From a virus, in IMG/VR virus record IMGVR_UViG_3300020430_000008, positions 62,001 through 126,000 of that record: DNA of 64,000 bases; one strand, 5' to 3'. Of the stretch, positions 29,202 to 64,000 are shown in pieces (the first letter of the stretch is position 1; the number at the start of each line of letters is the position of its first letter). Under the pieces are notes generated by a model. That model had not been told where the DNA came from, searched no databases, and saw only the letters and a list, made by a program, of their open reading frames with translations. Made by a program: the position numbers and the translations under genes.

Positions 29202-29202
29202 A

Positions 29203-30820: not shown

Positions 30821-30821
30821 G

Positions 30822-33831: not shown

Positions 33832-33832
33832 G

Positions 33833-34168
33833 TTACCCCTTGTATGCGCGGATAGAACTGATAAGTCCTTCCGAGTTAAATTCAATAATGTCAACAACCA
33901 GCAGCGGGTCTGACTCGGGAATCATAATCTCGATTTCTGCTGCAATCGTACGTGCATCTTCGTCGCAATGGAGCGCAATGATGCGTACAGCCAGAGCATC
34001 TACGTTATCAAATAACTGCTTGTTGGCATCTAGAACGACCATAGAGCCAACATAGGTGCCCTCCCAGTCGCGCAAATAAATGTTATTAGCGTACAACTCA
34101 CGCAACGCATCCAGATCGCCTTCGCTGAATGCCTGAAAGTACGCAACGGTCTGATTGTATAAATCCAT
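33833..34168 (-). CDS. SnoaL/NTF2-like fold protein
   Basis: This is a 111-residue protein with the NTF2-like pattern: an N-terminal helix (TVAYFQAFSEGDLDALREL), YANNIYLRDWEGTYVG, then curved beta strands ending EFNSEGLISSIRAYKG. Family members include ketosteroid isomerases and small binding proteins. In this cluster it could be a sugar-modifying isomerase or cyclase, but no catalytic dyad is evident. A good AAAGGTATTAAC ribosome site precedes the ATG. Confidence 0.8.
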   Translation of the reverse strand: MDLYNQTVAYFQAFSEGDLDALRELYANNIYLRDWEGTYVGSMVVLDANKQLFDNVDALAVRIIALHCDEDARTIAAEIEIMIPESDPLLVVDIIEFNSEGLISSIRAYKG

Positions 34169-34169
34169 G

Positions 34170-35057: not shown

Positions 35058-35818
35058 AGTACCACCTCGTAGTAGTGTCCTTTAGGAGCGATAATCTTGT
35101 GGTCAAGCATTTCCTGAATCGTTCCCTCGTCAAGAGGAAGCTGGAATGAGCTACGTTCAGGGTGCAGGCGAGCGCGAAGGTCGAGGATGTTGGGGCGTTT
35201 ACCGCCCGTCATCGCAACACCATCCATAATGTGCATGACATAGCGACGGTCAGTTGCCATGATTTGATAGCCGTCATTCTTTGACCGCTCGATACCCTTG
35301 ACCTCATACTCCCAACAGTCTTCGCCGGGGATGAGGTACTTCATCAGGTAGTCCTTGTTCCAGATGTTAAAACGCAGAGCCAGCCTATAGCTTGCGTCTT
35401 GAGTTAATTCAATTATATCATATCTGCCACAGTTTTCAACTAAATTATTGCTGCGCTGTGAAGGACCGGGAGTCAAGTCAACACGACCGATAGTAGGGCT
35501 CAGTCGAGCAACCAAATCATCATATATCTCAGTGTCAAGAGGCTTCAAGAAAAACTCATTTTCCAGCATGTGAACAAAGTACTGATCCTCGATACCTTGA
35601 AAATAATCAATGTGATCGTTTGTCCAATACTTAAGACCGCGCTGTTCGCCAAGCGACACAAATTCATAGTTGTCTGGCAAATCAAAGTCGGGGTGATTGA
35701 ATCCAATGATCTTCACTTGCTGTTCTGGTGACCAGAACTTGTTTAACAGAAAACTGAATGGTCGCAGAATGTGCAGATAATCATTTGATGTAAAAACATA
35801 TACGTTAAGATTTGACAT
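35054..35818 (-). CDS. Hypothetical glycan-cluster protein, possible glycosyltransferase
   Basis: The start chosen is ATG 35818, with GGAG seven bases upstream. The longer frame would read through the methyltransferase gene. The protein has 254 residues and opens LNVYVFTSNDYLHILRPF, with VKIIGFNHPDFDLPDNYEF nearby, reminiscent of GT-A proteins that handle nucleotide sugars. HMLENEFFLKPLD may hold acidic ligands. I do not recognise a defined family, and function is inferred from its place in the operon only. Confidence 0.68.
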   Translation of the reverse strand: MSNLNVYVFTSNDYLHILRPFSFLLNKFWSPEQQVKIIGFNHPDFDLPDNYEFVSLGEQRGLKYWTNDHIDYFQGIEDQYFVHMLENEFFLKPLDTEIYDDLVARLSPTIGRVDLTPGPSQRSNNLVENCGRYDIIELTQDASYRLALRFNIWNKDYLMKYLIPGEDCWEYEVKGIERSKNDGYQIMATDRRYVMHIMDGVAMTGGKRPNILDLRARLHPERSSFQLPLDEGTIQEMLDHKIIAPKGHYYEVVL

Positions 35819-35819
35819 G

Positions 35820-36638
35820 TCAAGCTCCCCTAATAAAATACGTGACGATAGAATTCTCAATCGGCTTAGCATGCCAGAATGCGCGCATGCCGTACTTCTC
35901 ACCTAAGCGACTGAGGCTGTCTTTACTGAAATAGTACAAATGCTCTGCTGGCTTGATATGCTTCCAATCGACACCTTCGTCCAAATAGTTCTGACACTCG
36001 ATATCATGAGTGCCAATGACAATAATACCCTTGGGAGAAAGTCGCTTAGTCATCTCATGCATAAGCACGTCAGGACGAGACACATGTTCAATAGTGTTGA
36101 AGCACATAATCACATCAAAGTCGCTTTCGCCGTAATCATTGATGTAGCCTTGAGAAAGCTGTACATTGTAACGTGCCATGCCTTCGTCAACATCTTGCTG
36201 GTTTGGGTCAATACCGAAAGCCTCGTAGCCCGCGTCCTCTGCAGCCTTGACCAAGAAGCCCATAGAACATCCGACATCAAGGAAGCGACCATTGTTCTTG
36301 AAACGAAGTGCGGGAGGCAGCAAGCCGTAGAAACTCTTTAGATATTGTATGCGCTCAGCAGAAATCATCTCGAACTCTTCAAAGCGCTCGTCGATACGCT
36401 TCTCTCCGATGCTGGTCTGGTACTCTCTCCAATAGTCACCTTCGTATTTGTCAACCCAGTGGTCGTTGGGTTGTGGAGGGTGAGTGGCAATAAAGCCGCA
36501 CTTCGAGCACTGCTTAATGTCAAGCTTTTGCTTACCACGACGAGACTTAGGCAAGCTCTCAAACTTATGTACTATTTTGCTGCGCTTAGCACCACAGAGC
36601 AAGCAGCCGCTGTTCTTTGTTCTATTCTTCATTGCCAT
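35820..36638 (-). CDS. Zinc-ribbon-containing class I SAM-dependent methyltransferase
   Basis: This protein has about 272 residues. The N-terminus carries a Cys4 zinc ribbon (CLLCG and CSKCG), then a class I methyltransferase with GRFLDVGCSMGFLVKA (motif I) and FDVIMCFNTIEHV (motif IV). This layout is common in sugar C- or O-methyltransferases of O-antigen and deoxysugar pathways. The start at 36638 is the best guess, because the frame is open further upstream into the preceding gene; ATG 36632 is nearly as good. Confidence 0.88.
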   Translation of the reverse strand: MAMKNRTKNSGCLLCGAKRSKIVHKFESLPKSRRGKQKLDIKQCSKCGFIATHPPQPNDHWVDKYEGDYWREYQTSIGEKRIDERFEEFEMISAERIQYLKSFYGLLPPALRFKNNGRFLDVGCSMGFLVKAAEDAGYEAFGIDPNQQDVDEGMARYNVQLSQGYINDYGESDFDVIMCFNTIEHVSRPDVLMHEMTKRLSPKGIIVIGTHDIECQNYLDEGVDWKHIKPAEHLYYFSKDSLSRLGEKYGMRAFWHAKPIENSIVTYFIRGA

Positions 36639-37536
36639 ACCAAGTGTTTTTTCCTTCCGTAATCGCTTCGTAGATTGTGTTCCACAAGTTATACTTTTCA
36701 AGAATCAGCTTTCTAGCTTCTGTCATGGCAGGAAGATGATCTTCAAAGTTGTCGTTTTCTAGAAGCTTAATAATGCGTTCTATTTCATTATGATCTCTAG
36801 CATCGAACGGAATGTAAGATCCCTCGGGAAAGAATTCATGAGTGTTTGAAATTCCGGGTGCAACATTGTAAACAGGCAGAGTCCAAGAAAGTAATGTATC
36901 TGTGAGTTGAGTTGCAAAGTAGTTTGGGTAAGTTCCATTGTCAAAAGCCAAGCAGTATTTATAGTTCTTTAGTGTATTATACTTGTCATCGTCTTTAATT
37001 TCAAGCACAAAATCAGATAATTCTGGTAATCTGCTGATGCGCCCAAACAGATCAAACTTGTCTCCGTGTTGTTGTTGAAAAGCCTTTACGAAATCAACGC
37101 GAGCGCGCATGCCGGGAAGCCATGTCTTCTCAGAAACTGTACACGACATATGCTTTGTTTTCTTCTGTGGCTTCAAGTTAAGTAAGTCGTCGTAAGTCTT
37201 TGTATAGCCCGAACGCTCACAATACCAAAACGTGGAGAAGTATGATTCGCCAGTCAAAAAGGAAAAGCGACGGATGCGGGGATCCATCGGACCCATGCCG
37301 CCACCGACACCGCGTGGTTCTCTGCTAAAATAGAAAGTCTTGCTTGGGTCAGGGGTCTTGACATCTGTAGCTTCTAGGATAATATAGTAGTCGGCATCCT
37401 CGATGTTTGGAGTGCCCTCCATATCTTTCCAGATGCCCTTGTTGCCGGGTGTTTGCCGTCGTGCGCGGTGCAGCAACTCGTTCTGATTCATGTTGTCCAT
37501 GCCCTTCGATGGCATGAAGTAAATCTTAAAACTCAT
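36622..37536 (-). CDS. GT10-like (fucosyltransferase-type) glycosyltransferase
   Basis: The 304-residue protein has a C-terminal half typical of GT10 alpha-1,3-fucosyltransferases: YKYCLAFDNGTYPNYFATQL, then DTLLSWTLPVYNVAPGI, where the acceptor and GDP-sugar pocket lies. FYFSREPRG belongs to the N-terminal domain. GDP-linked sugars are the usual donors of this family, which fits a cluster with a GDP-mannose dehydratase. Known GT10 enzymes use GDP-fucose; a different 6-deoxysugar donor is possible here. It overlaps the methyltransferase gene by 17 bases. Confidence 0.8.
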   Translation of the reverse strand: MSFKIYFMPSKGMDNMNQNELLHRARRQTPGNKGIWKDMEGTPNIEDADYYIILEATDVKTPDPSKTFYFSREPRGVGGGMGPMDPRIRRFSFLTGESYFSTFWYCERSGYTKTYDDLLNLKPQKKTKHMSCTVSEKTWLPGMRARVDFVKAFQQQHGDKFDLFGRISRLPELSDFVLEIKDDDKYNTLKNYKYCLAFDNGTYPNYFATQLTDTLLSWTLPVYNVAPGISNTHEFFPEGSYIPFDARDHNEIERIIKLLENDNFEDHLPAMTEARKLILEKYNLWNTIYEAITEGKNTWYGNEE

Positions 37537-38300
37537 TTTGTTCCTCCGAAATGATAACCAAACGTTTCTAGTATATTATGCCAGCGTTTTTCGAGCAAAT
37601 ATTTTTGCAATGGTGTATACATCTCTCTATAATCTTCTTTGTTTGGGTTGATGTTTGCGTCCTTACTTGGTACGTCATCATATTCGATGTTATTCTTTTC
37701 GCACCACTTGATAATATCGACTTTTAAGTTTTCACACCTCAACACATTCTCAAGCTTAGGCACCAGTCTACCGTCTTTAGTGTACAATTGGGCGAATAGA
37801 TTCTGCTTCAATGGTGGTATATGCCATGTTGCCTCGTCATCCAGATATCGGTCAACGAACTCTGGGAATGTCTTTGTATTCATCAGCGTGTTGCAGTTAG
37901 CCCAGCCGCCGTATTTGACACTGTTTGCGGTCCAATCTTCATGAGCGCGAGGCTGATATCTCCAGTAAGAATAGAACAGGCTAAATGGGTTCCTGACTAT
38001 TGTGACGTATTCAACATTGTCGCTTTCCATGGAATAGATCGGCTTGTACACTCTATGGTATGCCATGTCTTTTAAGAAAGGCATATGCGAATATTTAGCC
38101 GCTTTTGGATTCCAACCATCAACCGTAAAGTTGTAAGGAAACGCATGTGCTAAATTTTCAACATGGCTTCCCAACATCTCGACACCACCTCTTGGACTTG
38201 GCACATGCATAGTGCTTCCACACTTCAACATGTTTTTAAAATAAGTGCCGCCTGTCTTGGGAACATGAATGAAAAGCCACTTCGGAACATTAATAATCAT
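37533..38300 (-). CDS. Carbohydrate sulfotransferase-like protein
   Basis: This 255-residue protein has the two PAPS-binding elements of sulfotransferases: LFIHVPKTGGTYF (5'-phosphosulfate loop) and TIVRNPFSLFYSYW (3'-phosphate site). Spacing and length fit carbohydrate sulfotransferases of the Sulfotransfer family 2. A first in-frame TTG lies two codons upstream, but ATG 38300 is taken as start; it overlaps the preceding gene by 11 bases. It would transfer sulfate from PAPS to a sugar, in the cytoplasm. Confidence 0.87.
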   Translation of the reverse strand: MIINVPKWLFIHVPKTGGTYFKNMLKCGSTMHVPSPRGGVEMLGSHVENLAHAFPYNFTVDGWNPKAAKYSHMPFLKDMAYHRVYKPIYSMESDNVEYVTIVRNPFSLFYSYWRYQPRAHEDWTANSVKYGGWANCNTLMNTKTFPEFVDRYLDDEATWHIPPLKQNLFAQLYTKDGRLVPKLENVLRCENLKVDIIKWCEKNNIEYDDVPSKDANINPNKEDYREMYTPLQKYLLEKRWHNILETFGYHFGGTK

Positions 38301-39747
38301 ACTCAAACATTTCGATATCTTTACGATACCTCTCCGCTACTTTGTCACGCAACTCGTCAGAGTAGTAATCCTTGTAGGCACGCTTTGTGCCGGAGTTCGA
38401 GGAAACGTTAATATTCTCAAGCTTATTATCAATATTAATATTGGCACAGATGTATGCCCACTCATCATCAATGTTTTCCAACTTTCCAATGTGGTTCACA
38501 ATCAACTGACCCCTGTGTGTGACGAAGGTATGCTGTGAGCGGAAATGGTCTTCCGCGATCTCGTCAGGTATATCACACACGGCATTAGCAAATTCTTCAA
38601 ACGTCATTGATTGATGAAACAAATCTCCGTAGTTTCTGACCAGAGCGCGGTGGACGCCATTCTCATAAAACTCGTTTGTCTCGCCAGATGAAAGAATCTT
38701 GTTTTTGTAGCAAGAAACAAGTCGATCCCATGGATTGCGAACTATTGCAAACTTTAGAAAATCCCATGTCTGGTCTGATAGCAGTAAATGCTTCGGGACG
38801 ATTGGCCAGTTTGCAGCGTGCATAGCCTCAAATGACTTGAGATCGTTGAACACGTTGTCCTTGGCAGCGTCACTGATACTTACATCGACACCAAAATGTG
38901 GTGCCAACGCCATCTTGAGACTGCTGCATGCAACCTTCGGTATATACGTGTACACAAATCGATTGTTAGGCGATACAATGCACGTAGATGGGTGAGAGTC
39001 CGTAGGCGATGTTAGCGTGGCATACGGAGGCTTCTGACGAATCTCTGTCTCGGTACGAACCTGTAAGCCATTGTCTATCTTATGATCGTTAAGTGGGTTA
39101 GACATGTTGTATACATACAGCGGGTCGGCAATGTGAACGCTGCGAGGACCAGCCATCTCAAGCATTGGAAACATGAATGCCAAATCCCACGCCATACGAT
39201 AGAAGTTTCCATCCTTATCTTGCAAATCCTCGACCTTGATTCTGCTCCACAAGTCGTACTTAAAGGTGCGCAAGTGAGATGCCTGCCATGGGGCTTGACG
39301 CAACAAGCGTTGAGAAATCCATTCTGGTGGGATTTGCTTGGCGAACTTGCCCTTCTTGCCGCTTGGGTACTCCGCATAGCTACCGTAGGTCATGCGACAA
39401 TCGCTGTTGCGGTACACCATGTCGAGAAATGTCAAGACATCACGTCGTGAGAACCAATCATCACCGTCAAGAGTTACAATAATATCTTCGGGGTCAGGAC
39501 TTGACAACGCAATACCATCATAAATATTCTTCAAAGCAAATGCTTTTTCCTGCACTTCAACAAAGGTAAAGCGAGGGTCGTTTCCGATTTCCTCGCGTAC
39601 AATGTTTACCGTGTTGTCTGTTGACATGTCATCCAGTAGGATGCATTGAAAATCTTTATAATCTTGCGCCTTGATAGAGCGAATGCAAATCTTGATCCAC
39701 TTCTCTACATTGTAGAACGGAACAATGATCTTGAAATGACTAGCCAT
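38290..39747 (-). CDS. Fusion of GT2 glycosyltransferase and sulfotransferase
   Basis: The 485-residue protein is bifunctional. Residues 1 to about 240 form a GT2 domain (FKIIVPFYNVEKWIKICIRS, LLDDMSTDNT, and VTLDGDDWF with the DxD). Residues about 260-485 form a sulfotransferase with YTYIPKVACSSLKMAL and FAIVRNPWDRLVSCY as PAPS-binding elements. Addition and sulfation of a sugar by one chain would couple the two steps. Both halves look intact. It overlaps the next sulfotransferase gene by 11 bases and the upstream glycosyltransferase gene by eight. Confidence 0.9.
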   Translation of the reverse strand: MASHFKIIVPFYNVEKWIKICIRSIKAQDYKDFQCILLDDMSTDNTVNIVREEIGNDPRFTFVEVQEKAFALKNIYDGIALSSPDPEDIIVTLDGDDWFSRRDVLTFLDMVYRNSDCRMTYGSYAEYPSGKKGKFAKQIPPEWISQRLLRQAPWQASHLRTFKYDLWSRIKVEDLQDKDGNFYRMAWDLAFMFPMLEMAGPRSVHIADPLYVYNMSNPLNDHKIDNGLQVRTETEIRQKPPYATLTSPTDSHPSTCIVSPNNRFVYTYIPKVACSSLKMALAPHFGVDVSISDAAKDNVFNDLKSFEAMHAANWPIVPKHLLLSDQTWDFLKFAIVRNPWDRLVSCYKNKILSSGETNEFYENGVHRALVRNYGDLFHQSMTFEEFANAVCDIPDEIAEDHFRSQHTFVTHRGQLIVNHIGKLENIDDEWAYICANINIDNKLENINVSSNSGTKRAYKDYYSDELRDKVAERYRKDIEMFEYDY

Positions 39748-40588
39748 TAATAATATCCCTTACAATTTGTGGTATCTCTTCTCTCTTGTTACGCATAACT
39801 TCAATCAGTTCTTCGCCCTTAAGGTGAAACCATGGCTCTTTAGTAGCGCCGACGTTTTGATTTGTAACGACAGCCATGCCCATCATCCGTGCCTCGACAG
39901 CAATGCGCGAAAGCGTTTCAGGAGTCTGCGGGAAAAACACAAGTCTTTTATACGTCCCTAACTGTGAGAGAAAGTCATGATAATCGCTGGGTGGTATCAG
40001 CGCGTGTGGTAGGTTCTTGACCTTACAATACCTGACAGCGCCAATAGTGTTCTTATGCCAGTTGTCGCTTTGCATAATAGCACACATGTCAAGCTTCTCT
40101 TGCTTTGCCAAGCTGCTCATAAGCTCAAGACTGTCAGAAGACCACAGATTACCACCCAAGCTTTTAATAGTGTCGAGTCCAAGATTTTTACGAACAATGT
40201 TTGCATGAAAATCAGACTGACATAAGATAGCCTTTGCGTTTTGGTAGAACTTTTGATTGACCAGTTCTGACTCTGGTACTTCAAAGTTTTCATACTGCGC
40301 AGGGTTTCTGTTTCTTACATACTTGTGGTCGTGCTCGTAAATGATGTAGTTAGCACGCTCAGTGAGAAAAGTGTAGCTCTGGTAAGATAGCTCAAGAAAG
40401 TTTGAAATGATGTAAAAATCTACCAACTCATTTTGAATTGCAGCAGGGTCAAGGTTTCTGCTCTTGACCTTCATCACCGTGTAATCTGCAGATAAAAGTT
40501 TAATAAGTTCGTCATTGTTGACTTCCCCACCACCGGGGATTTCATCTGCAAAATAATCAGCTACGAACGCTATCGTCTTTTTGCTCAC
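39740..40588 (-). CDS. GT-B type glycosyltransferase, group 1-like
   Basis: The 282-residue protein starts at GTG 40588, which has GGAG ten bases upstream. A TTG at 40654 would extend it far into the preceding gene and is less likely. The C-terminal domain with ETLSRIAVEARMMGMAVVTN and GATKEPWF resembles the nucleotide-sugar-binding half of GT4-like enzymes. The N-terminal half has YIIYEHDHKYV. It continues the operon into the GT2-sulfotransferase gene (eight-base overlap). Confidence 0.78.
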   Translation of the reverse strand: MSKKTIAFVADYFADEIPGGGEVNNDELIKLLSADYTVMKVKSRNLDPAAIQNELVDFYIISNFLELSYQSYTFLTERANYIIYEHDHKYVRNRNPAQYENFEVPESELVNQKFYQNAKAILCQSDFHANIVRKNLGLDTIKSLGGNLWSSDSLELMSSLAKQEKLDMCAIMQSDNWHKNTIGAVRYCKVKNLPHALIPPSDYHDFLSQLGTYKRLVFFPQTPETLSRIAVEARMMGMAVVTNQNVGATKEPWFHLKGEELIEVMRNKREEIPQIVRDIING

Positions 40589-40859
40589 GCTTCTTTTTCT
40601 CCGTTTTCTTTCTTTCTTCAAACTCTTGTTTAGACTCAAGATAATCTTCTGCAAAAGTCATAACATCTCCGTGTTTATTTCGCAACACACCATAGTTGAT
40701 ATAATCACCAAAATATGTGTGCTGTTTTACACTCTGAACAACGCCCCAGCCAGCATCGCGACCAAGAAAGCCATCGGCATATGCCTCATACCATCTTACA
40801 AAATCACCAACTTTGAATTTTGCAGATACTTTTGGGGTGGCTTTATTCGTGTTCTTCAA
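40557..40859 (-). CDS. Small basic protein with SH3-like core
   Basis: This 100-residue protein has a beta-barrel-like core: KVGDFVRWYEAYADGF, GWGVVQSVKQ and a GDV turn. The C-terminus is a highly charged helical tail rich in K/E (EERKKTEKKKREQK). No known family. It may bind nucleic acid or ribosomes through the tail, but this is a guess. It overlaps neighbours on both sides: 17 bases into the GT4 gene and 32 bases with the chosen start of the next one. Confidence 0.68.
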   Translation of the reverse strand: MKNTNKATPKVSAKFKVGDFVRWYEAYADGFLGRDAGWGVVQSVKQHTYFGDYINYGVLRNKHGDVMTFAEDYLESKQEFEERKKTEKKKREQKDDSVRS

Positions 40860-42132
40860 CGCCTGCCTCCAACTCTGTAAGCCATGCGTCGATATCTAAG
40901 TTTTGTTCGCCTGCGAAAGCTTCGCAGAATTGAGAATACATGTTCTCAGGTGTGAAGTTATTAAGAATGTGCTTCTTAAGCCTGTTAGCAGTTCCTTGGT
41001 GACGAGAATGATTCTTGTGCAAATCACGAATCTGCTTCTTAAAGCTGCCCTCTTCTGGCTCACACCACTGAGAACCTTGCTGAATCACTCCCTCCCACAA
41101 CGTTTCCTGCGGGACCGGTCCCAGCTTGTAATCTACCTTCAAAAAATGAGGGCGAAGCTTGTCAGTCTTCTTGCTGTTGCTGGGAGCCATGAGAAAGTCC
41201 ATGTGACCGCTCCAAGCAGGAGCAACAACAGGCAGTCCACAATATGCTGCCTCAAAAATAGGTAACCCATAGCCCTCGCCATGTGTTAAAGTAACAAGAC
41301 CCTTAATCTTAGGGTGCTGATACAAGCTGTGGATTTCGTTCTCTGACATATGCCCGTGGATTAAATGAATCTTGCACTTACGATCAGGATACGCTTCAAG
41401 CATATTAGCAAGCTGCTTCTTAATAAACACTCGGTCAATGTTGGAAGTGTTCATGTGAAAAACCTTAAGAGCTAATCCAACATCCTCATCATCATGAAAC
41501 TCTTCGATAAACCATTCGATGGTGTTGTGTACATTCTTGCGCGGACCCCACTGGGCTACACAGAGAAAGTTAAAATCTGTACTCAAGTCAAGACCCAGAT
41601 CATCAGGGTTTGAGTTTGACGTGTCCTTTACAGGATAGTTAACAGTGGTAATCGGAGTCTCGCACTTGAGAGTTCCAATGCGCTCGTTTGTTCCCTGCTT
41701 CATGATACCATAAGATGTGGACTCATACACTTCTTTAGAGTGATTGGACACAACGATAATACGATCCATTTCGCGAGACTTCTCAATCCACTGTGGGGCT
41801 ACCATGGTAGTCTCGATACCAGCAGTGTAGCCGACATTGACAGGCGCAATCTTCTTCCACTCGTTAGGAATAGTAACTTGCAGAGAGATGTCATATTGCC
41901 CACCATTCTGTTGGTGGATCACAGTCTTGTGAAGCATACGGTCAATCCACTCGCGCTCTTCATCATCATCGTGAATCCAGCCGGTATTACCCCAGTTGGT
42001 TGCGTGCAGATAAATATCGTACTGGTCTTCCAGAGTACGCAAGGAGCGCAGAGCAAATCTACATTGCTCCCCGTATCCTGATAGTGTAAGTGCAGGTCCA
42101 ATCACAATGACCTTTTGTCTATTATCATTCAT
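40843..42132 (-). CDS. GT4 family glycosyltransferase
   Basis: The 429-residue protein has the two Rossmann-like halves of GT-B enzymes. VIVIGPALTLSGYGEQCR opens the N-domain. The C-domain contains FNFLCVAQWGPRKNVHNTIE and the EX7E-like region HGEGYGLPIFEAAYCGLPVV, which binds the nucleotide-sugar donor. The protein is somewhat longer than usual because of a C-terminal extension. An ATGA overlap couples it to the next GT4 gene upstream, suggesting two successive transfer steps. Confidence 0.9.
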   Translation of the reverse strand: MNDNRQKVIVIGPALTLSGYGEQCRFALRSLRTLEDQYDIYLHATNWGNTGWIHDDDEEREWIDRMLHKTVIHQQNGGQYDISLQVTIPNEWKKIAPVNVGYTAGIETTMVAPQWIEKSREMDRIIVVSNHSKEVYESTSYGIMKQGTNERIGTLKCETPITTVNYPVKDTSNSNPDDLGLDLSTDFNFLCVAQWGPRKNVHNTIEWFIEEFHDDEDVGLALKVFHMNTSNIDRVFIKKQLANMLEAYPDRKCKIHLIHGHMSENEIHSLYQHPKIKGLVTLTHGEGYGLPIFEAAYCGLPVVAPAWSGHMDFLMAPSNSKKTDKLRPHFLKVDYKLGPVPQETLWEGVIQQGSQWCEPEEGSFKKQIRDLHKNHSRHQGTANRLKKHILNNFTPENMYSQFCEAFAGEQNLDIDAWLTELEAGVEEHE

Positions 42133-43403
42133 AGCTCAGTATGCTCCCATCCCTTATAGTTTTTGCGACCCTCGGGGTGATTCCAAGAGCCAAAGTTTTC
42201 GTGTGCCTCTTCCAACAGGCTGACCCAGCGCTGACCAAAGTTTTGGAAGTTGAAATTATTCAGCGTGAACTCTCGACCGGAAAGACCTAAAGCAGAGCGG
42301 TCTGCGGCAGACATGTTATACATTTCCTTCAAGGCGTTGATAAAGTCTTCCTTAGAAATGCGGTCCTCGTAGATGTACGGAACGTCCTGAGAGCCAATAA
42401 TAGCCTTAGACGAGGGTTCAATGCCAATACCAAACCACTTTGTTCCGTCCGTTACTTGGTCCTGCAAGCCACCAGTCATGTTGACAATAATAGGTGTACC
42501 GCAAGAAAGAGACTCAAGAGTTGCAAGCCCAAAACCTTCGGCGTCACTGACATTGATTGTGCAATCAACAGCGTTGTACATCTTGGCTAACTGCTGTGGC
42601 GGGATCTTTTGCGTTGACAACAGAATCTGCCCCTCAGTCATGCCAGTGCGCTCCATAATGGCGATCATGTCTTGACCATGCTGGTCCTTTGGATCTGTAT
42701 GCATCAGCAGACGTGCCTTGTCATGACCGACTTCATCAAGAAAGTCCTTGAACCACCACATAATGCTGCCTGTTTGCTTACGGCGGGCATTGCGATTGTT
42801 CCAGAAGAAAGTAAATTTGTTATCTTCCTCGCCCTCGGGGATTTTGAAAAACACTCTTCTAAAAGCATTGATTTCATCTTGCGCCATCGGCGCGAAGACG
42901 CTGCCATCGACAGCGTGAGGCAGATATTCTCTCGCAACTGTAGGAGAGACATTCGCAACGATATCGTCAGTGACCTTAGAAATCGTAACAACCATATCAT
43001 TTGAATCATAGAACTTCTGATTAAACATAGGGTACGGCTTGTTGTCCCACACATGATAATAAATCAGCGGAACCAAGGGGCGAACCTCTTGCTCAATCAT
43101 CCACAACCAGCCGAAAAAGCGCGGGTCGGTCATAAACCACAGAATGTCAGGACGCTCAGTGCGCAGAATAGAGCGTACAGCGTCAGGAGTACCATACCCA
43201 TCGACCGGATAGATAGTCCAAAGGTCGCCCCATTCCTCAGTCTTCTGTGGCTGATGGTCTGGATGGCGAATAGCGCCGCCAAGACTGACAACTTCAAACT
43301 TGCCAGACCTAAGTAGCGCTTCAATCACATACTTTGTTTGTGTACCGACACCCGATGGAGATAACGGATGGTCGGAGATGGTTAATACTTTAATTTTTCT
43401 CAC
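42129..43403 (-). CDS. GT4 family glycosyltransferase, first gene of the glycan operon
   Basis: The 424-residue protein uses a GTG start at 43403 with GAGG upstream. The N-domain begins KVLTISDHPLSPSGVGTQTK, as in GT4 enzymes. The donor site lies in DAEGFGLATLESLSCGTPII, with both Glu residues in place. It is the promoter-proximal gene of the glycan operon. It differs in sequence from the neighbouring GT4 but shares the fold, so the two probably add different sugars or linkages. Confidence 0.9.
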   Translation of the reverse strand: MRKIKVLTISDHPLSPSGVGTQTKYVIEALLRSGKFEVVSLGGAIRHPDHQPQKTEEWGDLWTIYPVDGYGTPDAVRSILRTERPDILWFMTDPRFFGWLWMIEQEVRPLVPLIYYHVWDNKPYPMFNQKFYDSNDMVVTISKVTDDIVANVSPTVAREYLPHAVDGSVFAPMAQDEINAFRRVFFKIPEGEEDNKFTFFWNNRNARRKQTGSIMWWFKDFLDEVGHDKARLLMHTDPKDQHGQDMIAIMERTGMTEGQILLSTQKIPPQQLAKMYNAVDCTINVSDAEGFGLATLESLSCGTPIIVNMTGGLQDQVTDGTKWFGIGIEPSSKAIIGSQDVPYIYEDRISKEDFINALKEMYNMSAADRSALGLSGREFTLNNFNFQNFGQRWVSLLEEAHENFGSWNHPEGRKNYKGWEHTEL

Positions 43404-51342: not shown

Positions 51343-51765
51343 TTAATCGTCGTTATTCAATGCTGCTTTCACAGCTTTTACAAATTTAGCTCCTATGTTA
51401 TAACTATCAATCTCATCAATAGTTACCCATTCATATTCGGTATGCTCTTCACTAAGTTTTATTGTACCACTATATGACCGAGTTTTGTAAAATTTCTTTC
51501 GACCATCGTGCAATATCATTTCGGGACTTGTAATGTCAAGATCAGTCTCTTCCTTAACCTCACGTTTGAGCCCGTCGATGTCATCTTCGCCTTCATGAAT
51601 ATGTCCACCCGGCAAGTCCCATTCACCTGCGTGTTTCTCGTTTAAATCTGAACTCTTAAGGATGAGAGCTTTGTCTTCATCATTAATAAGCACGGCTTTT
51701 CTGACTTGTTCAGTGTCCATATCCTCTAGTAAGTAGTGTCGCCAATTTTCAAAAAGTTGTTTCAT
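51343..51765 (-). CDS. Nudix hydrolase with a predicted head-targeting N-terminus
   Basis: This 140-residue protein has two parts. Residues 1-14, MKQLFENWRHYLLE, match the N-termini of the proteins starting at 53003, 55505 and 56698. The rest is a Nudix domain: GGHIHEGE begins the box at residue 54, and REVKEET supplies R68, E69, E72 and E73. The box is intact, so hydrolysis of a nucleoside diphosphate derivative is likely. The L-L-E end of the leader looks like a prohead-protease site. ATGA couples it to the kinase-like gene. Confidence 0.9.
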   Translation of the reverse strand: MKQLFENWRHYLLEDMDTEQVRKAVLINDEDKALILKSSDLNEKHAGEWDLPGGHIHEGEDDIDGLKREVKEETDLDITSPEMILHDGRKKFYKTRSYSGTIKLSEEHTEYEWVTIDEIDSYNIGAKFVKAVKAALNNDD

Positions 51766-53003
51766 TGTGTAAACAGCCCCACGTCTACCATAACTAGTTG
51801 TCCGCTGTCAGGACGCATCATGACATTGCCTGTGTGCATATCTCTTGGTGAGAAGTTCTTCCCATGCAGATACTCCATCGCGTTCAGCAAGCCTTCTGCT
51901 TCGGAAAACGTTTCTTTCGTATACTTGTCTGCGCCCCCCAACTGAGCCTCGGGACCGTACTTATATGTCATAGGCACAACTTGTTTTTTTAAGTGGTAAA
52001 ACAGCCTTTCGTCAAGCTCTTTTGATGTTGTTTCCATGACTGCTTGGCGGCGGGTTGCAAAATACTCTTTCATCCTAGGGTCTTTCTGTTTATCAAGCTC
52101 ATATTTTTTTACAAAATCAGGAAGCATCTTGTCAACTTTATCAAAAAAGATGTTTAATAATCTTGGTCCGTGAGGTTTGAACGATGGGGCGTGGTAGCGG
52201 CTCAACCTTCCATAGTCAACATACATGTTTTCTCTTGGATTCTCACCCGCAAAATAAGCGCCAGCAACTTGTTTGATCAACGTGTCAAGATGCCACTTGG
52301 ACCATCTGTCAACAGCAGCGGTCATGTGCGGAGAAATCGATTTAGCCATGTTCGTAATCAACTCATTCATTGCACCTTCATTGGCAAATATACGTTTGAT
52401 CTTGTTTGTTGGAATCTCTTCATCAGGATCATCCAAAAACAAAGTGCCCAAAACCTCTTTCGGTGCGGGCGTCAACAACTCCATAAGAATAACCAAAGCA
52501 CCTTCTGCCATTTGATACGGCTGCTCGTTTCTGTCAACAATATCTTTACCGGGCACACGATAAACAGCATACACGTTAACTAAGTGCTGTTTTACTTCAT
52601 CTGGTAAGCTGGCTCTATTCTCAAGAATCCACCTATAGTTCTTTTCTTCATTGTCTACCTGTTGACCGCCCAAAAGCACAGACACAACCTTGACAGCTAA
52701 TCTGCGTCCGGTATTGCTGCCTTCTATTTCCCAGATTTTGCCGTATTGACCTTCATCAATAAAACGATTCACATAATAGCCATGCTCTTCAAGCATCTTT
52801 TCCAATCTACGAGGCATGACGCGCTTGGGTTTTGCAGGTTTGGGTGCTGTTGCGGTTTCAGCGCCCATGCCTAAGTCTTTCATCGCTTGCTTAAGCCTAT
52901 CTTCGGCTTTGCCTTGTTTCAACTTATTCAATAAGTCGTTCATTTCCGAGTCGGCAGTTTCGCCCTCAGTGAAACGTCTAAAATTTTCAAATAGATTCTT
53001 CAC
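51762..53003 (-). CDS. Protein-kinase-like protein with a predicted head-targeting N-terminus
   Basis: Taking the GTG at 53003 as start gives 413 residues beginning M-K-N-L-F-E-N-F-R-R-F-T-E, in line with three other proteins here. The kinase signs are a glycine loop (FIDEGQYGKIWEI), the AVKVV Lys105, the catalytic loop PRDMHTGN (D388, N393) and VDVGL (D407). Between them lies a long insert. The protein ends six residues after the DFG-like motif, so the activation segment and C-lobe are missing. The catalytic residues are present, but activity is uncertain. Confidence 0.78.
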   Translation of the reverse strand: MKNLFENFRRFTEGETADSEMNDLLNKLKQGKAEDRLKQAMKDLGMGAETATAPKPAKPKRVMPRRLEKMLEEHGYYVNRFIDEGQYGKIWEIEGSNTGRRLAVKVVSVLLGGQQVDNEEKNYRWILENRASLPDEVKQHLVNVYAVYRVPGKDIVDRNEQPYQMAEGALVILMELLTPAPKEVLGTLFLDDPDEEIPTNKIKRIFANEGAMNELITNMAKSISPHMTAAVDRWSKWHLDTLIKQVAGAYFAGENPRENMYVDYGRLSRYHAPSFKPHGPRLLNIFFDKVDKMLPDFVKKYELDKQKDPRMKEYFATRRQAVMETTSKELDERLFYHLKKQVVPMTYKYGPEAQLGGADKYTKETFSEAEGLLNAMEYLHGKNFSPRDMHTGNVMMRPDSGQLVMVDVGLFTQ

Positions 53004-53214
53004 CCTCTTCCTCTTCTCCTGCTTCTGGCAGGTCATCTAAGTCATCTTCGTCAAGTTCTGGCAAGTCATAACGGTTGCTTCGATGTTCTAAGGGTTTATC
53101 ATCTGATGTGCGCCACTTTTGCTCTGGCTCTACATGCTTCTTACACGATACCAATATGGATACCACAACTGCAGCCAAGAAAATATAATACAGTTGTCTA
53201 GTCGTTAACTTCAT
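52987..53214 (-). CDS. Small lipoprotein with acidic tail
   Basis: The 75-residue protein has a signal anchor and lipobox, YIFLAAVVVSILVSC, with C24 after L-V-S. It should be exported and lipidated. The mature part is charged, ending in an acidic run (LDEDDLDDLPEAGEEEEGEE). It overlaps the metzincin gene by 17 bases and the kinase-like gene by 17. It could be an outer-membrane spanin partner, but no such partner was identified. Confidence 0.8.
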   Translation of the reverse strand: MKLTTRQLYYIFLAAVVVSILVSCKKHVEPEQKWRTSDDKPLEHRSNRYDLPELDEDDLDDLPEAGEEEEGEESI

Positions 53215-53788
53215 TTTTCACTCCTGTCGATCTTAAACCGCCGTCAGACCATGCTCTGTGCATGATATGTCCGATTGAATTCATGTCCATCCAACCAAGG
53301 GCGTGACCTATTTCATGTTCTAGTATTCTTTCTGAGTCACCCCAAGCAGGAATGATCTCAATGCGGGCTTTGAAGATTTCGTTTGTTGCTGTCCATCTCC
53401 ATGTGCGAGTCTGACCAAGATGAGTGCCGAACTTAAAATCTTGACTTGGAATGTCAATAGTTATTGAGCCGCCGACTGCATCACCTGTCATACACTTTTC
53501 ATTACCTTGTTCTAATGTGGAGATAGGACCAAATGTATATCCTAATCTTTCCCAATACCTGACAGCATTCCTGACTCTATGTTCTGTAACAGGTCCATCA
53601 TGACAAATAAAAACGTATGGGCGTTGAATCCACTTTCCTTCGCGAATCGCTACATTTCCTTTAATGGGTATAACAGGGTGAATCCATATTTCTCTGTCTG
53701 GAATATCGTCAACAGTCAGACGAACAGCATCAGTGTGATGATCATGCACGCCACACAATAACATTGCTGAGAGCAATAAGGTTTTCAT
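53198..53788 (-). CDS. Exported metzincin-type metallopeptidase
   Basis: This 196-residue protein has a short N-terminal hydrophobic signal (MKTLLLSAMLLCGV). The motif HEIGHALGWMD at residues 158-168 is HExxHxxGxxD, with Asp168 as third ligand as in snapalysin-like metzincins. HIMH shortly after may be the Met-turn. It would act in the periplasm or after lysis. Cys residues occur at 61-63 and near 97. The start lies 22 bases after the recurrent AACTATTTATT motif. Confidence 0.88.
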   Translation of the reverse strand: MKTLLLSAMLLCGVHDHHTDAVRLTVDDIPDREIWIHPVIPIKGNVAIREGKWIQRPYVFICHDGPVTEHRVRNAVRYWERLGYTFGPISTLEQGNEKCMTGDAVGGSITIDIPSQDFKFGTHLGQTRTWRWTATNEIFKARIEIIPAWGDSERILEHEIGHALGWMDMNSIGHIMHRAWSDGGLRSTGVKNEVND

Positions 53789-53810
53789 TCATATTACCTC
53801 CACTATTATC

Positions 53811-53823
53811 AATAAATAGTTAG
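53811..53823 (-). promoter_or_regulatory. Recurrent CTAACTATTTATT motif upstream of the metzincin gene
   Basis: The same 13-base string as at 9542-9554, here 22 bases before ATG 53788 and overlapping the stop of the small ORF at 53820. Equal spacing to the start at both places favours a functional element, perhaps a phage late or middle promoter. Confidence 0.35.
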
Positions 53824-53924
53824 CATGTTTCAGTTTCGCACTGTTCAGATTCTTTAGTTTTAGCATCTTTATCCAGTGTAACTGTAAATGCGACCAAACT
53901 TATGCAAGCAAACAAGATAACCAT
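53820..53924 (-). CDS. Small membrane peptide
   Basis: A 34-residue ORF that starts one base after the upstream stop. It has a hydrophobic N-terminus (MVILFACISLVAFTVT) and a polar Cys-containing tail (SEQCETETC). It was missed by ordinary length limits. Coding is supported by tight packing and by a signal-anchor-like sequence. No function is known. Confidence 0.55.
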   Translation of the reverse strand: MVILFACISLVAFTVTLDKDAKTKESEQCETETC

Positions 53925-53925
53925 A

Positions 53926-54195
53926 TCAATTGTCGTCTTCAAACTCTGGCACAAGTTTCAAACGTGGAGGCGGTAAAGGCTCTTTCATTCTTTCAGCCAA
54001 TTCTTCTGCAGTGATAAACTTTAATGTAATCACTGAGCTTTCTCTGTCGTAATGTAAACCTACAGCTTCTGTCATGTTAACTGCCAAGACATCATCTTCT
54101 GACAGTACAATCTCGCCACCATCACGTTTCATGATTGCAGCTAATATTGTAAATAAAAAGTCAGGGTCTTTTAATATATTGTCGTAGTCGCTCAT
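53926..54195 (-). CDS. Small acidic protein of unknown function
   Basis: This 89-residue protein starts at ATG 54195, overlapping the thioredoxin stop by ATGA with AAGGG upstream. It has FLFTILAAIMKRDGGEIVLS and EELAERMKEPLPPPRLKLV. The style is that of small phage regulators. No family recognised. Confidence 0.65.
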   Translation of the reverse strand: MSDYDNILKDPDFLFTILAAIMKRDGGEIVLSEDDVLAVNMTEAVGLHYDRESSVITLKFITAEELAERMKEPLPPPRLKLVPEFEDDN

Positions 54196-54779
54196 AACAA
54201 CCCTTCGACCCATCCCTGTACGACGGATTCACTCCAGCCATTAAGACCATATCGCAATACCATTGACCGGTCAATAACAACAATCGTTGGCCAACTTGTG
54301 ATAGGATAACCATCTTCAAGTGGGTCAGTTGTATCAATCAAATCTCGGGAACCAGCGAGGACCATTGCTTCGGTTGAGTGCATAGTTGCCCATGTCTGTA
54401 AGTCTGACACGTCAATAGGACCGCCAGCGCTATCTTCAATCAACACAGTAATCCAAATAAAATCATCAGAACCGTATTGTGCATTCCACTGATCAGCAAT
54501 AGGTGCAATCATATTACAAGGTCCACACCACATAACAGAAAAGTCTAAAACAATAACCTTTCCATGGTTTTGATACAACTCTTGTTCAATACCGTTCTGA
54601 TCTGTCAAAGTCAAGTTACATGGATTATCGCCAATATTATGAGCGCACGTTTCCCAAGTTGCCCATGGATATGGATCTTCTGGGATGTCAACAGCCGACG
54701 AATCAGTTGTTGCCTCCAATTCTGCGGGTCCGCAAGCGCCGCATGCAATCGCAAAAATGAGCGGTATAAATTTCAACAT
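54192..54779 (-). CDS. Exported thioredoxin-fold lipoprotein
   Basis: The 195-residue protein begins MLKFIPLIFAIACGACGPAE, a lipoprotein-like signal with Cys13 or Cys16 as the lipidated residue. The thioredoxin active site is C85-G-P-C88 in SVMWCGPCNMI, and YPITSWPTIVVID carries the cis-Pro. It is thus anchored in the cell envelope and could reduce or form disulfides in periplasmic proteins. A second exported thioredoxin is encoded at 47888-48373. GGGAGGAC precedes the start. Confidence 0.88.
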   Translation of the reverse strand: MLKFIPLIFAIACGACGPAELEATTDSSAVDIPEDPYPWATWETCAHNIGDNPCNLTLTDQNGIEQELYQNHGKVIVLDFSVMWCGPCNMIAPIADQWNAQYGSDDFIWITVLIEDSAGGPIDVSDLQTWATMHSTEAMVLAGSRDLIDTTDPLEDGYPITSWPTIVVIDRSMVLRYGLNGWSESVVQGWVEGLL

Positions 54780-54794
54780 ACATATGTCCTCCCT

Positions 54795-55505
54795 TTATCT
54801 GGGTGTACCCAGCATTATCTTCATTTCATTTTCATTTCCAGAAATCGTTCTTGTGTACCATCCATCCACGCCGGGGTACTTACCCTCTGGGTGTGGTCCT
54901 AACCACTTGATGGGTTTACTAGGTCCGAGCACTCTCTGGACAACCTCTGGGTCGTTCACATGTGGCACGTCGTGATATTTCAACATGACATGTGCAATAC
55001 CTTTTGACATTTCAGCATAAGTGCCGGGAGTTAGCAACATGTCTGCTGTCTTTTTCTTGTAAGCGTCAATAGCGGGACGAGAACCATCGTGTCCAGAAGC
55101 GGACAGTTTTAGACCGGAAGGTTTGCTTTTTGCAATGCGGACAGCATCTGGTTCTGGGTCGTCGTCGAGGTCAACTGCTGACCAATAATCTGCATCACCG
55201 GGAATGTCTGCGGCAGTTTTAAAATCAAAGTTACCGCCAATGTTTTTATATGCATTATTAATGAGTGCAATCAACTCATCTGTAATGTCAACATTGTCAG
55301 GGTCATTTTTTAAATCACTTGCAGGAATCTCTTCCCACTTGCCCTTGTCATGTCCATAGTCAGCCCAGACTTCTTCTTCGAGTCCCATAGCTTTTCTGGC
55401 TTTCTTACTTCTTTTTTTGTTATCCTTCTCGACCTCATCATCATACTTGTCGCGTACTTCTGCCTCATTCAAGTACTTGCGCCAATTTTCCATGATGAGC
55501 TTCAT
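54795..55505 (-). CDS. Conserved phage protein with a predicted head-targeting N-terminus
   Basis: The start is ATG 55505, giving 236 residues. The leader M-K-L-I-M-E-N-W-R-K-Y-L-N-E ends in an L-N-E cleavage-like site. The body has PDAVRIAKSKPSGLKLSASG and the later KGIAHVMLKYHDVPHV, a layout I know from hypothetical proteins of marine phages. An acetyltransferase-like relation has been suggested by style only. An acidic helix follows the leader. It overlaps the Cys-rich small gene by ATGA. Confidence 0.75.
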   Translation of the reverse strand: MKLIMENWRKYLNEAEVRDKYDDEVEKDNKKRSKKARKAMGLEEEVWADYGHDKGKWEEIPASDLKNDPDNVDITDELIALINNAYKNIGGNFDFKTAADIPGDADYWSAVDLDDDPEPDAVRIAKSKPSGLKLSASGHDGSRPAIDAYKKKTADMLLTPGTYAEMSKGIAHVMLKYHDVPHVNDPEVVQRVLGPSKPIKWLGPHPEGKYPGVDGWYTRTISGNENEMKIMLGTPR

Positions 55506-55606
55506 TCTTCTGCATTCCAGCATCCACAACCACTGCAGCACCTGCCTATTGTAAGGTCTGCTAGTTTTCTCGCATAATGCCTAATCTTTTGGATTAATGT
55601 TTTCAT
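55502..55606 (-). CDS. Cys-rich small peptide
   Basis: A 34-residue ORF beginning directly after the stop of the next gene upstream (TAA-ATG) and ending with an ATGA overlap. The N-terminus is basic and helical (MKTLIQKIRHYARKLADL). The end is RCCSGCGCWNAEE with four Cys. It may bind a metal or form disulfides. Coding is supported only by its packing. Confidence 0.6.
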   Translation of the reverse strand: MKTLIQKIRHYARKLADLTIGRCCSGCGCWNAEE

Positions 55607-56698
55607 TTAGCAATTACAGTCCCATTTTCTTAAGGACTTGTTGATTCTGCTATCTGGATCTCTCTTACCCTTAGCGCCAGTATTCTTCTTTTTCATACCG
55701 CACATTCTTGCACAGAACGACTTTCTACGCTTTGCAGCTTTACCGCCCTTGCTCTTCTTAGCTTGCTTGGCTGATACAGGAGCCTTTAAATCACTACCGG
55801 GATTTTCCTTCTCATATGATTTACGACCCTTTGCGTTCAAGCCGCCTTCTTTATTCTTACCAGCCTTTCTTTGCCATGCTGCGCTCTTCTTCTTTTCTTC
55901 GATAGCCTCTTCCTCGTCAAGCATGTCAAGAGTTTCTTGCATTTCAAGCAGCATGTCAGCAACGATTCTATCAACCATTTCCTTTGTATGAGACTTGGTA
56001 ACCTTACCTTTCTTGGTGGCAGAAACATATTGCTTACCAGCTTTGGTGCCAGCTTTCTTCTTAGCATTATCGGCTGCTTTTTCATCGGCATCCATTGTCT
56101 TCCACTTGGAAGCTGGCTTGCATCGAGATTGTGAGCCGTCACTACCGTCCTTGGGGTCACCGCAGGGTGAGCCGTCTGAGTGTGTCCAATTTTCCTTTTC
56201 CCAGTTGCCCAAGCCACCGTCTTCTTCGCTTAGAGTACTCTCATTCTTCTTATCCTTGCCGCCCCTTCCGTAGTTCGGGTCTTTACAATACTTGGAAGCA
56301 ATCTGTGCCGCTCTTGCAGACCAGTTGTTGAACTTACCGTCTTCGCCGCGCTTAACCAACTGCCCGCCGATTGTCTTACCGTCAACCCAGTCTTTTCCTG
56401 CCTTACAGATTTCGTCTTCGTTAAGAGCTTCTAAACCTTCGTCAGTCTTCTTACGACAAGAGCCGGGTTCGCCTTCTTTACTGCCCGGTACTCTCTCGTA
56501 GCCATCCCAACAATCTTCTTCAAGCTTCCCATCATCAGTCTGATCTAAAATCTTTTCAATGCGCTCGGCTTGTCCTTTGTGCATTTTTACAGCACCACGG
56601 AGTTCGTCTGCGATTTTCTTGAGTTCTGCTTCTTGTTCTTTGCTGTGTGACTCTGTAAGAAAGTTTCGCCAGTTTTCCATAATTCTTTTCTGTTTCAT
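55607..56698 (-). CDS. DUF5872/DUF6321-like phage protein with a predicted head-targeting N-terminus
   Basis: Starting at ATG 56698, behind GGAGAGTACA, this is 363 residues. It begins M-K-Q-K-R-I-M-E-N-W-R-N-F-L-T-E, an L-T-E cleavage-like site. Residues about 60-90 hold EEDCWDGYERVPGSKEGEPG, the DUF5872-like block. The C-terminus has AAWQRKAGKNKEGGLNAKGR and CARMCGMKKK, the DUF6321-like block, and is very basic. It may bind DNA inside the head. The names are given from memory of these families and were not searched. Confidence 0.8.
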   Translation of the reverse strand: MKQKRIMENWRNFLTESHSKEQEAELKKIADELRGAVKMHKGQAERIEKILDQTDDGKLEEDCWDGYERVPGSKEGEPGSCRKKTDEGLEALNEDEICKAGKDWVDGKTIGGQLVKRGEDGKFNNWSARAAQIASKYCKDPNYGRGGKDKKNESTLSEEDGGLGNWEKENWTHSDGSPCGDPKDGSDGSQSRCKPASKWKTMDADEKAADNAKKKAGTKAGKQYVSATKKGKVTKSHTKEMVDRIVADMLLEMQETLDMLDEEEAIEEKKKSAAWQRKAGKNKEGGLNAKGRKSYEKENPGSDLKAPVSAKQAKKSKGGKAAKRRKSFCARMCGMKKKNTGAKGKRDPDSRINKSLRKWDCNC

Positions 56699-60600: not shown

Positions 60601-61077
60601 TTACATACTGTGCTGATCGTATTTTCTAATCTTGTCGTAAAGGCTCTTCAAAATTGGAAGGATTGATTGACCTTGATATTTCCCAGCAAGTCTTCCATCT
60701 GCTTTTAAAGTTTGAATGGCTTGAGGAATGTTCTCTCTGCTGGTATTGTTAATAAATTGTTCCCAAGTGTTAGCGATTATAGCGAGGTCATTCGGTGTAT
60801 CCCTCAGTCCACTAGATACGCGCGCGGGTTCTTGTTGTCTATAGAACTCATCTCTGTGGGGAGGGAACCCTTCCTTTTCTAATGCCTCAGCATCGTAGAC
60901 ATCCTCACGACTATACTTCTCAGGATTTGCCAGAACATCTCTTGCCCATTCTTCTTGAGTGCGCTCAGAGCCGTCAGGGTTTTTGCCAAACTGCGAATAG
61001 CTCCATGCTTCTTGGATAAGATAAATATAAATCTCTTCCTGTACAATTTCGTTAAGTTGTGATTCACTAAGTTTCAT
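60601..61077 (-). CDS. Conserved small phage protein
   Basis: The 158-residue protein begins MKLSESQLNEIVQEEIYIYL, a kind of opening I have seen in marine-phage proteins of otherwise diverse type. The rest is charged and has no known domain (TQEEWARDVLANPEKYSRED). A GGAGG ribosome site is in the preceding gene's end. Its N-terminus could be a head-targeting signal, but it lacks the ENWR core. Confidence 0.72.
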   Translation of the reverse strand: MKLSESQLNEIVQEEIYIYLIQEAWSYSQFGKNPDGSERTQEEWARDVLANPEKYSREDVYDAEALEKEGFPPHRDEFYRQQEPARVSSGLRDTPNDLAIIANTWEQFINNTSRENIPQAIQTLKADGRLAGKYQGQSILPILKSLYDKIRKYDQHSM

Positions 61078-62171: not shown

Positions 62172-64000
62172 CTATGCGCCGAAAGTATTCGGTCCCGGCT
62201 TAGCTTTATTTTTTATTGGATCGATCTCATCTTCTTCATCATAGTAAGGTGCGCGCTCAACTGGATCAACAGTAAAGTTTGCTGCACCCCAAGCTAAATC
62301 TGACAGTGCCTCATCAATCTCTTCTTCGCTTTCATTTTGAGAACCGTATGTGATACAAGGGTCTTGCCCGCAACCACAGTTCTTCTTTTCTGATTCTTCA
62401 ATTTCGTCGTCCTCTTCACGAATCAAAGTGTCCACCTTTTTCTTCTTCTTCTTGTTGTATGCGCTAGCTGGTCCCTCAACAGCACCGCCAGCCATGGCTG
62501 ACATTTCATCCATTGTTTCTTCAACAAGTCTTTGAAGAGTTTCAGCAACTTGTGCCTGCTCTGGGTCGCTCATTGCAACCTGTGCTCCCATCATATTAAT
62601 AACTTCTTCCGCTTGACCTCTGAGAGCTTGGGGCAAAAACTGTGCTACAGTTTCCTTGTCTCCTGCTTCAATGGCATTGCGAAAATCAGTCGCACTCAGT
62701 GGCACATTTGTCACTGTCTCTTCACCCGTTTCTTCATCGACTTTTACTACTTGACGTGTAAACTCTTTTCCGTCAATATCGATTGCAAATTGTTCACCAG
62801 CCAAAATGCGCACACCATCTCTGGCGTACTTTTGTACGCTGCCAGCAAATCGTGAATGATCACCCCCTTTGGTGCTGACTCCAAGTATTACATGGTCGCC
62901 CGGTTGTGCTTTCTGTGGGTCGTTGTCTTCGTTGCCCACATAGTTATAGGTCATTTTGATTGGTGAATTATCTGTTGACACATAGACCTTGACTGTCTCG
63001 CTTAAGCCATATGCGTCGATATACTTTTTCCATAAATTCAAAGAATGTTCTGATGTAAAGTCAATAGGCTGGGCAAACTCACCATCACTTTGTCTGCTGA
63101 GGGGAGAAATGAAGATTTTGACTTCATCTGCCATGACGCTATATTGACGTACCATGGCGAAGTGCCCACGGTGTGGCAACTTAAACGCGCCGGGAACAAT
63201 AGCAACGACTCTTCGCTGCCCTTGGTTCTCATCAAGTCTATCAATCGCTTCAACATCGCCACGACCGTATCGAAACAATCCTAGGATTTGATTGATAGGT
63301 GCAAAGTTACCAGTGAACTTATACATCTGTCCATTGTAAGTAAACACAAAGCCCTCGACTGCAGTATTAACATTGTCGTGGCTCTTGAGCTTCTTAAGTT
63401 GTCTTATTAAAATATTGTGTGCTTCATCTCTGCCCGGTCCATCATAATTTTGGATCTTGTCAATAGCAGTAGCTACCTCGCTTCGCAGTCTCTCAAGTTC
63501 TCTTGCGTTGTCAAGAATATAAGCACTTTCTAAACCTTTCAACATTTCAACTGCAAAATCGTGAATCGCATCCTCGATGGGTTCAATGATTTCACCCAGC
63601 AGTTTCTTTTTATTATTCTTTTCGAGCAACTGGGCAAGTGCTGCTACTTCGTTCTCGTCTTTTAACATCTTACGAACGAGTCGAATATTCTTTCTGCCCT
63701 TGGTTGCTTTGATGTGATCAATAATGTGACCAACCACTTCCTTGTTTGCGCTCGGTACTGCTCTCTTGATAATAGGAGTCAGCTTCATATCAGTGTATTG
63801 ACCAATTGTCATGTTGCCACTGAACCCTGCGTGATTCATACGACGCAAAGTGTCTTCTAATATACTTTTGTCTGCAAGCGCCTGTAGCTGCAGTACAGCC
63901 GTCTTGCGGACTGAGAAGGGCTCATCCCCTGTTGCTTCTTCAAAGCGGTCCAGAACGTCGTCGAGCGTCTGAGAAATGCGGTTGACTGCAGAGTCTGTCA
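62172..64000 (-). CDS. Large protein with nucleotidyltransferase domain (5' end outside window)
   Basis: The frame is open from the right edge, giving at least 608 residues with the N-terminus missing. A central domain has VEGFVFTYNGQMYKFTGNFA, and then VVAIVPGAFKLPHRGHFAMV, a GxFxxxHxGH nucleotidyltransferase signature. ILGVSTKGGDHSRFAGSVQK and LSATDFRNAI are other parts of the same domain. N- and C-terminal parts are helical and acidic with Cys (KKNCGCGQDPC). It could act in NAD or sugar metabolism, or inside the capsid; the function is open. Confidence 0.82.
   Translation of the reverse strand, partial: TDSAVNRISQTLDDVLDRFEEATGDEPFSVRKTAVLQLQALADKSILEDTLRRMNHAGFSGNMTIGQYTDMKLTPIIKRAVPSANKEVVGHIIDHIKATKGRKNIRLVRKMLKDENEVAALAQLLEKNNKKKLLGEIIEPIEDAIHDFAVEMLKGLESAYILDNARELERLRSEVATAIDKIQNYDGPGRDEAHNILIRQLKKLKSHDNVNTAVEGFVFTYNGQMYKFTGNFAPINQILGLFRYGRGDVEAIDRLDENQGQRRVVAIVPGAFKLPHRGHFAMVRQYSVMADEVKIFISPLSRQSDGEFAQPIDFTSEHSLNLWKKYIDAYGLSETVKVYVSTDNSPIKMTYNYVGNEDNDPQKAQPGDHVILGVSTKGGDHSRFAGSVQKYARDGVRILAGEQFAIDIDGKEFTRQVVKVDEETGEETVTNVPLSATDFRNAIEAGDKETVAQFLPQALRGQAEEVINMMGAQVAMSDPEQAQVAETLQRLVEETMDEMSAMAGGAVEGPASAYNKKKKKKVDTLIREEDDEIEESEKKNCGCGQDPCITYGSQNESEEEIDEALSDLAWGAANFTVDPVERAPYYDEEDEIDPIKNKAKPGPNTFGA

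Follow-up and report, generated by a model that had tools for sequence, protein, structure and literature searches.

A short N-terminal leader on unrelated proteins of uncultured T4-like phages: a candidate head-loading tag

Four leader-bearing proteins and their bodies

The window analysed is a 64,000-nucleotide stretch of viral DNA, positions 62001-126000 of a 141,217-base IMG/VR virus record, the remainder of which was read too. Four of its proteins, all encoded on the minus strand, begin with the pattern MK-x-x-[FLM]-E-N-[WF]-R-x-[YF]-[LIV]-x-E (Table 1). A preliminary description of the window had reported shared leaders at 51765, 53003, 55505 and 56698, ending in L-x-E or F-x-E; all four are present, with chance excluded, and their ends are as described. 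The leader of the kinase-like protein is one residue shorter and its site, F-T-E, is an exception to L/I-x-E. The 141-kb record has three matches to the core W[RKHN]x[FYH][LIVM]xE, each at an N-terminus and none within a protein. Leader starts agree with those of homologues; the GTG at 53003 is preceded by AGGAAGAGG, a ribosome-binding site, and the start at 51765, which lies within the last bases of the kinase gene, has no clear ribosome-binding site.

Table 1 Leaders and leader-bearing proteins in the window
Feature	Position	Strand	Basis
Leader 1, MKQLFENWRHYLLE then D, cut predicted after Glu14	51724..51765	-	Reading of ORFs; L166 homologue MKQLFENWRHYILE then D
Leader 2 (variant), MKNLFENFRRFTE then G, GTG start	52965..53003	-	L166 homologue MKLLLENFRRFTE then G, with ATG
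Leader 3, MKLIMENWRKYLNE then A	55464..55505	-	Reading of ORFs and homologues
Leader 4, MKQKRIMENWRNFLTE then S	56651..56698	-	AGGAG ribosome-binding site upstream
Nudix hydrolase with leader	51343..51765	-	Pfam NUDIX E=3.3e-15, residues 24-124, beginning past leader
Kinase-like protein with leader	51762..53003	-	Weak Pfam Pkinase; alignment; AF2 model and Foldseek
Probable GNAT-fold acetyltransferase with leader	54795..55505	-	AF2 and Foldseek
DUF6321 protein (T4-GC 119 family of cyanophages) with leader	55607..56698	-	Pfam DUF6321 E=6e-20, residues 280-359
Second-type leader, MKLSESQLNEIVQEEIYIYLIQE then A	61009..61077	-	Pattern scan
Protein bearing second-type leader	60601..61077	-	No convincing family match

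Pfam and PHROG searches and Foldseek bore out that the bodies behind the four leaders are unrelated. Two of them had been put down as phage families; their unrelatedness stands, and they are better described as one GNAT-fold enzyme, probably, and one DUF6321 protein, a family found in 472 phage records, chiefly of cyanophages. The former had no Pfam or PHROG match. Its AF2 model, made from 11 sequences, has a pLDDT of 76, and its best 50 Foldseek matches were GNAT-type acyltransferases (best E=8e-4, TM 0.2-0.4); because these scores are modest, we term it a probable GNAT-fold enzyme, an acetyltransferase identity that is new here. All ten of its aligned homologues carry an ENWR-type leader.

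For the kinase-like protein, the best 50 Foldseek matches to the AF2 model were protein kinases, with low TM-scores, and alignment of six homologues showed that the catalytic Lys and Glu, the PxDxHxGNV Asp/Asn loop and D-[LV]-G are kept and that all six stop shortly past D-[LV]-G. Members of this family (L060:1418-2455, L075:5000-6016, L017:260-1408, L072:4639-5667 and window 51762-53003) terminate just past DLG/DVG, without the C-terminal half of the C-lobe and with the catalytic residues retained.

Of two genes that sit between the leader genes, one (53198-53788) encodes a product that starts like a signal peptide and has a HEIGHALGW metalloprotease-like motif, the other (54192-54779) a lipoprotein-like thioredoxin; as neither has the leader, both are probably exported in the host cell. 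A large protein at 62172-63998, running past the window end, has an HxGH nucleotidyltransferase-like motif (PGAFKLPHRGHF); a putative cytidylyltransferase, T4-GC190, is present in cyanophage virions (PMC3037559). ORF translations also suggest a long series of sugar-nucleotide, glycosyltransferase-like and sulfotransferase-like genes at 25588-43403.

A modular peptide tag in many viral contigs

The preliminary description had proposed searching related phages for the leader on other proteins. A first scan of IMG/VR with a DNA pattern for MKx[L]FENWR matched at least 119 stretches, and all ORFs of the matched stretches yielded, among the matches listed, 210 distinct leader proteins, whose bodies fall into about 104 BLAST clusters (69 of them single-member). 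In IMG/VR the full-length leader pattern matched 95 stretches, whereas a set of 84,980 bacterial and archaeal species, represented by one genome each, gave no match; the leader was likewise absent from 2,743 ORFs of random viral contigs. No cultured phage with this leader or the second type described below was found by tblastn or blastn of leaders or leader proteins, searches to which such short queries give little power. Leader genes form arrays, with nine in a row in locus L112 and eight in L067. Domains recognised among the bodies include Nudix, kinase, HAD/5'-nucleotidase, AAA/polynucleotide kinase, tRNA CCA-transferase, HD, DEDD exonuclease, 2H phosphoesterase, DUF192 and amidase; a good share of the bodies are recognisable enzymes, not structural proteins. 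Possible ADP-ribosyltransferase bodies ('YHGT' or similar, in L051, L067 and L087) were suggestive, and were set aside with no Pfam match among the families shown. A cysteine-containing CPPATQDLELNTKNR family, annotated 'high potential iron-sulfur protein', bears the leader at L104:3691-4191, L061:1760-2209 and L250:14749-15483; in Actinomycetia phage DSL-LC01 it has no leader, and neighbouring genes are annotated as a capsid maturation protease and a major capsid protein.

The leader is modular, in that homologous bodies bear other leaders or none. Nudix homologues start with looser leaders (MNKWNKFLTE, MTPNWKEFLTE and MNYFMKKWHNFVNE), and some DUF6321 homologues carry a second leader type, MKITKSQLKQIIQEELASVLNE, others being leaderless. 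Cyanophage DUF6321 proteins have no such leader, so this body need not be head cargo. In P-HM1 and P-SSM2 the cyanophage DUF6321 gene lies near the gp14-gp17 genes; we did not adopt it as a virion marker, having found no statement of its virion presence in the searched literature. Further DUF6321 homologues (L211:2097-2465, L206:3313-3852, L213:1145-1594 and L223:2393-2755) start MKTF[NQ][QE]FQAECWKTHKKVGMKMKGG, a shape like the T4 capsid targeting sequence (CTS) with Gln at P3; the L211 start, MKTFQEFQAE, is alike in this way and was kept as a lead only.

Conservation follows the peptide and stops at the predicted cut. With the alignment anchored on the Glu of ENWR, positions 10-14 having been free in the first search pattern, information is high to residue 14: Glu14 still carries 3.2 bits, the two residues after it 1.0 and 0.5. 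L/I-x-E stands directly after ENWR in 176 of the 210 listed leaders, compared with 22 of 210 in a control stretch. Within a locus, codons for the same residue are synonymous variants of one another in 40% of cases, and identity over the 30 flanking bases on either side is about 30%, from which we conclude that selection works at the peptide level. In both AlphaFold models the leader residues have pLDDT below 50 and lie apart from the confident body fold; this and the unrelated bodies rule out that the leader is the start of a common folded domain, the objection that the preliminary description had raised against itself. It is, with near certainty, a real, modular, peptide-level tag.

The phages with the ENWR leader also have a second leader family, MKITKSQLKQIIKEEL...LxE, on about 104-120 of their proteins (up to nine in locus L095); none of the 2,743 random viral ORFs carries it. 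[LIVMF]-x-E follows MKITKSQLKQIIKEEL in 84/104, mostly ending at residue 21 or 22, compared with 23/104 in a control stretch. Besides the example in Table 1, several more lie elsewhere in the 141-kb record, and others at L002:9189-9539, L005:9075-10316, L024, L031, L035, L043, L095 and further loci.

Head genes and the meaning of the leader

Besides a portal and a large terminase, the record has genes for a gp23 capsid protein and a gp21-type protease (Peptidase_S77, record positions 28544-29152), and a putative scaffold protein lies at record positions 20219-21274; by its gene sequences the genome is T4-like. Its gp23 has an N-terminal propeptide ending LLRE, followed by A; in 12 leader phages this site reads LLRE or LLKE, then mostly A or S. 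Among leader contigs of at least 130 kb, S77 was present in 21/21 and gp23 in each of the 12 tested for it; of random viral contigs of 44-107 kb, 2/16 had S77, a difference in size that makes the comparison rough and weakens it. S77 was absent from two larger contigs fetched for other reasons. The T4-type late promoter TATAAATA was not found near leader genes and showed no coding-strand enrichment anywhere in the record, which leaves the promoter scan uninformative.

In T4, gp21 cuts after L/I-x-E, and in the CTS of IPIII residues 4 and 7 serve targeting and residues 8 and 10 processing (PMC9026906). IPII and IPIII of the T4 record both start MKTYQEFIAE. Anchored on the final Glu, the leader residues W8..Y/F11-L/I12-x-E14 have the spacing of T4 Y4..F7-I8-x-E10, a match of spacing and not of function, and the aromatic pair is kept at this distance in 197 of the 210 listed leaders. 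Only the MK start and these spaced residues match MKTYQEFIAE, which is too short for a claim of homology. Against a capsid-targeting reading stand the F-T-E end of the kinase leader and a P1' that is often acidic and not confined to A, G or S: of 147 exact-spacing leaders, 47 have E or D there.

The L/I-x-E end, the co-occurrence with S77 and gp23 and the T4 spacing lead us to read the leader as a capsid targeting sequence: it is probably a head-loading tag of the CTS kind that had not been recognised before, and a substrate of the S77 protease. The preliminary description had arrived at head targeting by likeness to T4, and each main sequence-level prediction of that idea that was tested (protease, L/I-x-E, spacing, modularity and bodies) speaks for it. 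We infer a course running from late expression through core binding, cleavage, packaging and ejection to a role in the cell. Leader proteins would be produced late in infection, and the short amphipathic N-terminal leader would bind the scaffold core of the assembling prohead, bringing the body along. The gp21-type protease would then cleave after the glutamate of L/I-x-E, leaving the mature protein free inside the head. DNA would be packaged around it there, and with the DNA it would enter the next host. There the bodies may act in the first minutes of infection, ahead of phage gene expression, in host take-over or counter-defence. Candidate cargo comprises the Nudix hydrolase, the kinase-like protein, the putative GNAT acetyltransferase and the DUF6321 protein and, in related phages, tRNA CCA-transferases, polynucleotide kinases, nucleotidases and exonucleases.

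That the enzymes reach the host in active form is a further step, which by analogy with T4 we hold to be likely, with somewhat less assurance than head loading itself. The same tag might instead dock proteins to the head for assembly only, as a scaffold does, the proteins being cut and then staying in or leaving the head, not delivered in active form. Some leader bodies are indeed small and uncharacterised (as in a 16-member cluster around L064), and T4 core proteins are likewise cut at L/I-x-E; many bodies, however, are recognisable enzymes without an assembly role, and the kinase of the window retains its catalytic residues, so that we regard docking alone as unlikely.

More improbable still is an intracellular address, in which an uncut leader on unpackaged proteins would act as an amphipathic helix directing them to the inner membrane, a host protein or a phage compartment. 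By inspection the leader is a short amphipathic peptide (L3, L4, F5, W8, Y11 and L12), yet such an address leaves unexplained both the T4 CTS spacing and why conservation stops exactly at the Glu of L/I-x-E. The arrays of up to nine leader genes are what swapping cassettes would produce, and would suit a feature kept for its nucleotides, such as a translation signal or a hot spot of recombination or gene swapping; the synonymous codon differences and the divergent flanks largely refute this, and we give it next to no weight.

If the leader is a head-loading tag, its 14-residue motif predicts which unknown proteins of T4-like environmental phages travel with the DNA, marks 'hypothetical proteins' as candidates for effectors or anti-defence enzymes of the first minutes and offers a test peptide for cargo loading into these heads. 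We lean, by a modest margin, towards a broader proposal, that a large uncultured T4-like group uses two modular tags (MKLLFENWRKYLNE and MKITKSQLKQIIKEEL...LxE) as a general head-loading code for a virion-borne effector arsenal. Were that so, each virion would carry a changing set of kinases, acetyltransferases and RNA-repair and nucleotide enzymes into the cell, and the arsenal would be readable directly from genome sequence. The open-licence PubMed Central papers searched did not mention either leader sequence in connection with phages. The class, that of the T-even CTS, is known; to judge by the literature searched, what is new is the tag, its scale and its enzyme cargo.

Comparison with known systems

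The nearest counterpart is the CTS of the T4 internal proteins IPI, IPII and IPIII, which is likewise N-terminal, 10-19 residues long, with an MK start and an L/I-x-E end, and is borne on unrelated bodies encoded by clustered genes in phages with gp21 and gp23. Foreign proteins are packaged when they carry no more than the ten-residue CTS of IPIII (PMC9026906), and the diverse internal proteins of T-even coliphages, with 'only a conserved' CTS in common (PMC3012670), are a precedent for one tag on many bodies. The tags differ in sequence, MKTYQEFIAE in T4 and MKLLFENWRKYLNE here, and in length, the latter being longer by four residues; the tag described here often has an acidic P1' and is borne by about 100 body families, many enzymes among them. 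By analogy it likely works like the T4 CTS, a peptide too short to settle membership by descent.

T4 packages an ADP-ribosyltransferase, Alt, in its head; gp21 cuts this enzyme, which on injection modifies the host (PMC9026906). Alt carries a 7-residue propeptide of its own and is also processed at the C-terminus, whereas here enzymes of other sorts share one tag. The giant phage SPN3US is also reported to have many head proteins, some of them cut by a prohead protease, that are delivered to the host (PMC5694885, PMC7411985); it belongs to another phage group and uses another protease.
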